Positions 18,498 through 58,390 of a stretch of 64,000 nt of DNA are shown here, one piece after another. Both the position numbers and the translations under genes were made by a program. Position 1 is the first letter of the stretch; each line of letters begins with the position of its first letter. The stretch spans positions 124,001 to 188,000 of the forward strand of contig NZ_SGXD01000001.1 of assembly GCF_004216915.1 (NCBI RefSeq), written 5' to 3'. This DNA is from Motilibacter rhizosphaerae. GTDB lineage: Bacteria > Actinomycetota > Actinomycetes > Motilibacterales > Motilibacteraceae. The notes beneath the pieces were generated by a model. It saw nothing but the letters and a program-made list of their open reading frames with translations. It had not been told where the DNA came from and did no database searches.

Positions 18498-18539
18498 CCC
18501 GCGCTGCGGGCGAGCCAGCCCGCCGCGGCCGGCCTGGAA

Positions 18540-18699
18540 GTTGATCAGGCTGCCCGATCAAGGACGAGCCCGACCGCACGGAGTGGTCGCCACCAGGACG
18601 AGATCTCGTCCGTACGGCGTGCACTCCGTGCGGCCGGTCGTTCGAGGAGCGGCAGCTCGACAGGCGGCGCCGGGAACTCGATCGGGCTGCCTGATCAAC
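18540..18699. repeat. Palindromic intergenic repeat element, copy 1
   Basis: Both ends carry the same 23-base core in inverted orientation, at 18540-18562 and 18677-18699. The core is itself close to a palindrome (arms GTTGATCAGGC and GCCTGATCAAC around one base). Between them is a nested hairpin: CCGCACGGAGTG near 18574 pairs with CACTCCGTGCGG near 18622 around the perfect palindrome GGACGAGATCTCGTCC. On the minus strand its middle part matches the two units of the 48.3-48.6 kb element (shared CACGCCGTACGGACGAG). It lies between the converging ends of the lipoprotein gene and purA, so it may act as a two-way terminator. No protein is encoded. Confidence 0.75.
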
Positions 18700-18727
18700 G
18701 TCGCCGCGCGGGCGAGCCCACCTGCGC

Positions 18728-39862: not shown

Positions 39863-40027
39863 GCGCGCAGCCTGCCACCGCGGCGCCAGGACGTGCATGA
39901 TCACGAGGAGGAAGGGCGCATCGGACCCGCGTGATCCGACGCTCAAGCCTCCGCGGCGTTGCGCCGAATGGGTGTGTCAAGGGTCCGTACGACGCGTACG
40001 GGCCGGCCACTCGAGGAGGCGACCGCG

Positions 40028-47551: not shown

Positions 47552-48226
47552 GTGCCCCTCGCGACAGCAGCTGCCGCCACCACGACCGCCCTCGGCCCCT
47601 CCTGGATGCACCCGACCGAGCTCGTCTCGACGTTCGGGGCGTACGCGCTCGTCGCCGTGCTCGTCATCGTCTTCGCCGAGTGCGGCCTGCTCGTCGGGTT
47701 CTTCCTGCCGGGCGACTCGCTGCTGTTCATGACCGGGCTGTTCATCGCCGACGGTTCGATCCGCACGCCGCTGTGGCTGGCGTGCGTCCTGGTCGCCGCG
47801 GCCGCGGTGCTCGGCAACGCCGTCGGGTACGCGATCGGCTGGCGGCTCGGTCCCTCGGTGTTCGACAAGCCGGAGTCGCGGCTGTTCCGCCCGAAGCACG
47901 TGGCGCGCACGCACGAGTTCTTCGAGAAGTACGGCACCCGCGCCATCTTCCTCGCGCGCTTCGTGCCGATCGTGCGGACCTTCATCACCGTCATGGCGGG
48001 CGTGGGCCGGATGGACCGGCGCGCGTACTTCACCGCGTCGACCATCGGCGGCATCGTCTGGGGCGCCGGCGTCGTGCTGCTCGGCCACGCGCTGGGCGGC
48101 GTGGACGCGGTCAAGGACAACATCGAGCTCGCGCTCGTCGGGATCGTGCTGCTGAGCGTGATCCCCATCGGCCTCGAGTGGCTCCGGGCGCGGCGGGAGA
48201 GCGGGTCGGTCGGCTCGGCGGGGTGA
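47552..48226 (+). CDS. DedA-family membrane protein (second of two)
   Basis: 224 aa. It has the same signatures as its neighbour: FAECGLLVGFFLPGDSLLF and ARFVPIVRTFITVMAGVGRM, plus YFTASTIGGIVWGAGVVLLG. It is longer at the N-terminus and closer to typical DedA proteins than the upstream copy, so the pair probably arose by old duplication. GTG 47552 is the start. The gene ends just before the large repeat element. Confidence 0.9.
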   Translation: MPLATAAAATTTALGPSWMHPTELVSTFGAYALVAVLVIVFAECGLLVGFFLPGDSLLFMTGLFIADGSIRTPLWLACVLVAAAAVLGNAVGYAIGWRLGPSVFDKPESRLFRPKHVARTHEFFEKYGTRAIFLARFVPIVRTFITVMAGVGRMDRRAYFTASTIGGIVWGAGVVLLGHALGGVDAVKDNIELALVGIVLLSVIPIGLEWLRARRESGSVGSAG

Positions 48227-48257
48227 GCGGTGGCGCGCGGCGCGGTGGCGCCGGGAA

Positions 48258-48561
48258 GTTGATCAGGTTGCCTGATCATGTGCGCGCCAGACCGCACGAG
48301 GTGCACGCCGTACGGACGAGTTCTCGTGCTGCCGGCAGCCAGTTCGTGCTGCCGGGCGCTGGGGCACTGCGGCCGGGCGGCTAGCGGCGTGTGGACCGCC
48401 GTCGGGGCCAGGCCGCGGACGCCGTCGGGGCCAGGCCGTGCGCTGGACGGAGCCCGCACGGGCCCGACCGCACCAGGTGTGCGCCGTACGCACGAGATCC
48501 CGTACTGCCGGCGCCCAGTCCGTGCTGCTGGGCGCGAAGTCGATCGGGCGACCTGATCAAC
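48258..48561. repeat. Palindromic intergenic repeat element, copy 2 (double unit)
   Basis: The 370-base gap between the DedA gene and a converging small gene is almost filled by this element. Its ends carry the same 23-base core seen at 18.5 kb, inverted, at 48258-48280 and 48539-48561. Inside are two direct units of about 71 bases, 48291-48361 and 48467-48538, sharing CGCCGTACG, CACGAG and CTGCCGGC segments. Between the units an 18-base sequence is repeated at 48398-48415 and 48421-48438. No convincing gene lies here. Position suggests a two-way terminator or a small non-autonomous mobile element. Confidence 0.75.
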
Positions 48562-48596
48562 TTCCCGGCCGGTCGGTCCGGTCGGGCGCGGCGCGC

Positions 48597-48857
48597 CTAC
48601 CAGGTCGTCGGGTCGTCCCGCAGGTCCAGGTGCTGGCCGGTGAGCCCCGCGGCCCGGCGGCGGATGGCGTCGAGCGCCTGGCGGGCGGCGTCCTCGCTGG
48701 CGTAGCGGCCCAGGCCCAGCACGGTGTTGGCCGGGCCGGCGACGACCTCGGCACGCACGCCCCAGGGCGCGTCGCCGCCGACCTGCTCGAGGTAGACGCT
48801 GACGCACAGGTCGAGGTTGACCAGGTTGCCGCGGGCGGTCGTGACCCAGGTGGACAT
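48597..48857 (-). CDS. Small conserved-looking protein, function unknown
   Basis: 86 aa. ATG 48857 follows GGAGGAAG with good spacing. The N-terminal half (TWVTTARGNLVNLDLCVSVYLEQVG) reads as beta strands; the C-terminal half has one helix (SEDAARQALDAIRRRAAGL). It looks like short actinobacterial proteins whose beta hairpin contains LVNLD. There is no signal or membrane segment. It diverges from the ROK regulator. Confidence 0.65.
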   Translation of the reverse strand: MSTWVTTARGNLVNLDLCVSVYLEQVGGDAPWGVRAEVVAGPANTVLGLGRYASEDAARQALDAIRRRAAGLTGQHLDLRDDPTTW

Positions 48858-58336: not shown

Positions 58337-58390
58337 CTCCCCGTGATCATGCACATCTCGGGACCTCAGGATCTGCATGATCACGGGGAG
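58337..58390. terminator. Hairpin with 17-bp perfect stem (GTGATCATGCA family)
   Basis: Positions 58337-58353 pair with 58374-58390 around a 20-base loop. It starts 6 bases after the stop of the SDR gene on the minus strand, so it fits that gene's terminator. The stem contains GTGATCATGCA; a similar single arm occurs at 39894-39910. No U-tract is visible. Confidence 0.6.

Follow-up and report, generated by a model that had tools for sequence, protein, structure and literature searches.

A dispersed, gene-less palindromic repeat in Motilibacter rhizosphaerae that shares its end core with the region upstream of an amplified DUF222-HNH gene family

Multi-copy genes for DUF222-HNH proteins are familiar from mycobacteria as REP13E12 or 13E12. 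One account (PMC13061034) describes REP13E12 as repetitive and as a gene-conversion hotspot, gives it no defined function and counts it with the repeat loci that recombine most frequently in M. tuberculosis, and another (PMC10589994) lists it among repetitive elements near insertion sequences. In M. rhizosphaerae, we found a multi-copy DUF222-HNH family together with a short repeat that is present or absent between sister species and whose end core and palindrome are common to the region upstream of the amplified DUF222-HNH genes. Gene-less palindromic satellites carrying such an upstream core do not appear in the descriptions of REP13E12 consulted, the comparison here being one of description. 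Our literature searches returned no description of the repeat and no link of such repeats to DUF222, most subscription papers lying outside their coverage.

The starting point was a 306-bp element without a gene in the window, by which we mean the whole 64-kb stretch of DNA that was analysed. Its ends are palindromic and inverted (AGTTGATCAGG...CCTGATCAACT), the termini being AGTTGATCAGGTTGCCTGATCA, starting at 48257, and CGATCGGGCGACCTGATCAACT, finishing at 48562, each with a palindromic core. The features are as follows.

48257..48562, no strand: the entire element with both units, in a convergent gene interval; missing from the sister species G001
48257..48278, + strand: left end; its palindromic core, GATCAGGTTGCCTGATC, spans 48261-48277
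48283..48359, + strand: first 77-nt unit, imperfect palindrome inside
48397..48415, + strand: 19-nt internal duplication, copy 1, exact
48420..48438, + strand: 19-nt internal duplication, copy 2, exact
48459..48535, + strand: second 77-nt unit, with 83% identity to its partner
48541..48562, - strand: right end; its palindromic core, GATCGGGCGACCTGATC, spans 48542-48558
18539..18700, no strand: the other copy in the window (162 bp), at the purA 3' end; missing from G001
47552..48226, + strand: flanking gene of the 306-bp element (gene finder call), which we take to encode a DedA-type membrane protein
48597..48857, - strand: flanking convergent gene for a small protein of unknown function; orthologous stretch in G001

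The sequence-only reading of this DNA had described inverted cores around two direct 71-base units with an 18-base internal duplication. The arrangement was borne out, but the units measure 77 nt and the duplication 19 nt. The two units lie on the same strand, 176 nt apart from start to start, and are imperfect palindromes, so that both "direct" and "inverted" fit them. As that reading had also noted, the called genes place both window copies where two genes converge. With up to three mismatches, the core pattern matched eight times in the 64-kb window, against a shuffle mean of 0.30. No Rfam family scored above its gathering score for the element, and searches for a plasmid, phage or viral home of the repeat gave no match. 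A sub-threshold match to the Guanidine-II riboswitch (48608-48654, - strand; 20.3 bits vs 32) lies outside the element, inside the flanking gene, and is probably due to chance.

The repeat is a dispersed, gene-less and sharply bounded family. A blastn search gave 55 matches in the 4.3-Mb genome, and the core pattern, with at most one mismatch, matched 43 times on each strand, against none on either strand for the reversed control pattern; 44 distinct end cores were counted. In seven compact copies the end-to-end length is 109 bp, or 110 bp in one of them; the 16-bp inverted ends are perfect in L191, L192 and L200. Conservation around the core is restricted to about -80 to +26, and 26 of the 44 copies align gap-free across 117 columns, a length partly due to the selection of copies. 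The 18 cores left out comprise isolated cores, second ends and the DUF222-linked copies L178, L190, L201 and L210, which carry an extra half-site between unit and core. The earlier suggestion of an undescribed REP/MITE-like element is supported by the number of matches, the inverted-end copies of 109-110 bp and the empty state of both window sites in the sister species.

That species, G001, is the sole same-genus genome found. The genes flanking the 306-bp element are about 21 bp apart in G001 vs 370 in M. rhizosphaerae, the purA site is nearly closed, and at L201 the whole core-plus-gene DUF222 unit is absent, so that all three sites examined (both window copies and one DUF222 unit) are without the element. 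At each site there has been either insertion in M. rhizosphaerae or loss in G001, and the sites differ. Flank identity to G001 is 68-86%, a divergence at which exact junctions and target-site duplications are unreadable; no such duplication was visible at 12 two-ended copies. With at most one mismatch, the core pattern occurs once in G001 and not at all in three further family members. This only core-like site of G001 (L315, position 3911; C13:55713) lies about 1.2 kb after a G001 DUF222 gene.

We found that DUF222 and HNH were the most recurrent families among 65 of the 66 proteins flanking the copies (the set omits an additional call at L193), with 5/65 each and the next family at 2, and that no transposase was present among the 25 families listed of 119. 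The genome has 27 DUF222 matches, and the three proteins scanned, all from linked genes and not from the gene-less window element, each have DUF222 and HNH domains above cut-off. Eight full-length DUF222-HNH genes, 83-100% identical to the type copy, form group A. In all eight, a GATC palindrome precedes the start by about 100 bp, and five (L178, L183, L190, L201 and L203) also have the outer core and palindromic unit there. The 300 bp before DUF222 starts hold nine cores, where 0.083 would be expected. The conserved group-A unit stops at the stop codon, and the sequence beyond looks unrelated between copies. A stop-codon palindrome, CACCAC(N6)GTGGTGA, is exact in three of the eight genes (L179, L180 and L183), occurs as a near variant in L190, L201 and L203, and is missing from L178 and L189. 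A DUF222 gene at C5:205614, 49-53% identical, shares the left end and carries the stop-codon palindrome in its exact form. The left end is common to gene-less copies and DUF222-HNH units; the right end is not.

These data bear on whether the repeat might be the MITE of a classical DDE transposon, with its autonomous copy lost or in an assembly gap and the DUF222 promoters having merely acquired copies. Inverted ends, small fixed size and many gene-less copies would suit such an origin, as would an assembly of 15 contigs that breaks in repeats, contig C11 ending in DUF222 copies on both sides. It leaves the nine cores upstream of DUF222 genes, the palindrome in 8/8 group-A genes, the left end kept in the 49-53% identical relative and the lead of DUF222 and HNH over any transposase among the flanking families listed without a ready account, and we regard it as improbable.

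Other observations concern the DUF222-HNH genes themselves. In 22 of 26 own-genome loci, the motif GTGATCATGCA precedes the DUF222 gene in oriented arrays, with 55 copies along the gene direction and two reversed, and it is absent from 45 Blastococcus/Modestobacter-type loci; three copies in the window (0.01 expected) have no DUF222-HNH gene beside them (39894-39904, -; 58343-58353, +; 58374-58384, -). Two more amplified DUF222-HNH groups (L323-L341; protein ends DRDPGSTTPIW and QPCAA) have no core, and most members have GTGATCATGCA upstream. The stretch CGACTCTGTCAGTGGTGGCTTGTA, just before the group-A start, is kept with 3-6 mismatches of 31 in three G001 genes (L297, L306 and L315) whose protein identity to group A is only 40-44%, and it may be a promoter-like or a functional site. 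An assignment of the DUF222-HNH protein to IscB was rejected, the NCBIfam match being weak (25 bits vs a cut-off of 175) and confined to the HNH stretch. A search of solved structures with the protein gave nothing below E 0.94.

The palindromic unit has 467 of 754 cells in Watson-Crick pairing in register, vs about 183 when slid out of register. When the arms were dealt anew among copies, 474 paired cells were expected, so that each arm is a consensus half-site without compensatory change, and no within-copy covariation of the arms was found in the 26-copy alignment of M. rhizosphaerae. RNAalifold predicts the core stem alone. Individual copies do fold more stably than shuffled sequences (mean z -3.0; 16/26 below -2), as expected of any palindrome. 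A conserved RNA hairpin in this species was accordingly rejected, and the sequence comparison favours recognition of the element as duplex DNA. A consensus palindrome kept in this way, and located upstream of DUF222 starts, is also what might be seen if a DNA-binding regulator used the cores as operators and these had spread through recombination and by hitch-hiking with DUF222 units; most copies, however, are found at the 3' ends of genes or in convergent intervals, where no operator target is obvious, and we think this explanation very improbable.

We found that the 38 clusters of the repeat in M. rhizosphaerae comprise 14 between convergent genes, 16 in tandem and 5 in divergent intervals, two inside a called gene and one at a contig end, whereas element-free junctions of the same loci comprise 29 convergent, 101 tandem and 46 divergent, the gene positions in both sets coming from our own small gene finder, not from standard annotation. 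The convergent excess (14/35 clusters vs 29/176 other junctions, P 0.003) became P 0.0001 without the eight DUF222-upstream clusters. It is a real enrichment and no rule, tandem sites being equally common. The catalogue of copies and gene orientations proposed by the sequence-only reading thus upholds a non-random preference for convergent sites, but not the placement in such sites only.

The same reading had suggested a role in termination. The repeats could be bidirectional transcription terminators, or stabilisers of RNA 3' ends, maintained between convergent genes for such a role, and the convergent excess speaks for it. On the other side, G001 is without the element at the three sites examined; its counterpart of the convergent junction at 48257-48562 consists of 21 bp free of any such element, so that this junction can do without it. 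Five of the 38 clusters are divergent, and tandem copies are equally far from stop and start (medians 142 and 93 nt, n=17). The arms do not covary, and no terminator-like site, that is, a G+C-rich hairpin followed by a T tract, was found in window positions 48150-48650.

Further evidence on this point comes from repeats in Blastococcus and Modestobacter. A scan of named genomes matched at least 120 stretches, and among the 80 loci listed, 23 were from Blastococcus or Modestobacter. Exact cores were found in all six genomes searched of these genera (3-15 per genome) and in only two of 393 sampled genomes of the class, those of M. rhizosphaerae and G395. Two layouts occur: core - arm - arm - core, in which the cores are mostly 63 nt apart, and core - arm - arm - arm. 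The 50 clusters counted, from 45 loci with G395 included, cover 46 of the 57 exact places; 32 are convergent, 15 tandem and 3 divergent (convergent 32/50 vs 18/157, P 1e-12). A gene 3' end is nearest in 47/50, at a median of 14 nt after the stop in the 15 tandem pairs. The core flanks covary: within Blastococcus-type genomes, the first pair matches in 21/29 vs 13.2 expected (P 0.001), by a stricter rule than the overall count, in which three of 72 core rows (L107, L111 and L057) were wrongly oriented. Much of the arm covariation is between-genus difference, as a protein site would also show. Six locus pairs from different species have at least one flanking orthologue in common, three of them both. 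M. rhizosphaerae and these relatives also have three occupied sites in common, located at the 3' end of purA, of GroEL (Cpn60) and of one further gene. Tight placement after stops, covarying flanks and shared 3'-end sites add to the case for termination, against which several relatives' copies (L219, L227 and L252) come after a classical hairpin terminator. In the Blastococcus/Modestobacter lineage, a role at 3' ends or in termination has to be taken seriously; as a general explanation of the repeat, we consider it rather unlikely.

No DUF222 link emerged in these relatives: no core was found in 20 DUF222 loci, other genomes' loci included, DUF222 is not among the 25 families listed of 197 for 93 flanking proteins, and in a further set the cores beside DUF222 were own-genome copies plus two weak sites (L308 and L315). 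Blastococcus-type (L232-L250) and Modestobacter-type genomes (L213-L230) each have their own version of the inner arms, even at shared sites (L236 and L244), a pattern that reads as concerted change. A common origin of these repeats and those of M. rhizosphaerae is suggested by the core, and by the core only. Even if the DUF222 link fails, the literature searched gave no description of a repeat core that occurs in two actinobacterial lineages and, in one, is fixed to the 3' ends of genes.

We prefer to read the element as a MITE-like repeat associated with a mobile unit of the DUF222-HNH (13E12) type; for the full chain, including mobilisation by the unit's protein, we put the probability at about 0.5, and some form of mobility of the element seems likelier than this. 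The DUF222-HNH protein would recognise, in duplex DNA, the half-sites and the core centred on TGATCA and would nick or cut there, and its own DUF222 unit and the gene-less repeats would be moved or gene-converted as a result. Copies would survive chiefly between genes and clear of promoters, which would produce the convergent excess, and the double unit and 19-nt duplication may have been born of recombination between copies. Several findings sit uneasily with a DUF222-HNH mover: gene-less copies are without the right end of the DUF222 unit, DUF222 genes are frequent in genomes without cores (for example, 12 matches in G001), the Blastococcus/Modestobacter-type repeats show no DUF222 neighbour, and no target-site duplication is readable. 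More tentatively, DUF222-HNH (13E12) proteins, which in actinobacteria are multi-copy and have no assigned function, might be the enzymes of a class of mobile element with a TGATCA-centred palindrome as its left end and the gene's own stop-codon palindrome as its right end, which also spreads gene-less palindromic satellites into intergenic DNA. If true, 13E12/DUF222-HNH genes would gain a role and testable DNA sites, and a mobile-repeat system without a classical transposase would be added to those known. With the end core of the repeat in front of its genes, the DUF222-HNH nuclease is a testable candidate for the mover of the repeat.

Among known systems, REP/BIME sequences with TnpA-REP (RAYT) are similar in being intergenic palindromic repeats with single and composite copies, but differ in their enzyme: the Y1 (HUH) transposase (PF01797), named by the sequence-only reading as a possible mobiliser, was found in none of 12 genomes by a search that was positive in 5 of 14 known genomes used as control, and that proposal was dropped. 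The Blastococcus/Modestobacter 3'-end repeats have the same 19-bp core (TGATCRGGYNRCCYGATCA) beside a palindrome, an intergenic location and the convergent excess, but differ in their inner arms (GTCCTGGCTCACC or GTCCYCCCGCACC), in the usual 63-nt spacing, in lying tight to stop codons and in having no DUF222 link found. MITEs are likewise short, gene-less, dispersed and of fixed size, with inverted ends and empty sites in sister species; in the repeat described here, for which no classical transposase partner was found and no target-site duplication was read, the ends are themselves palindromes and the units multiply inside copies.
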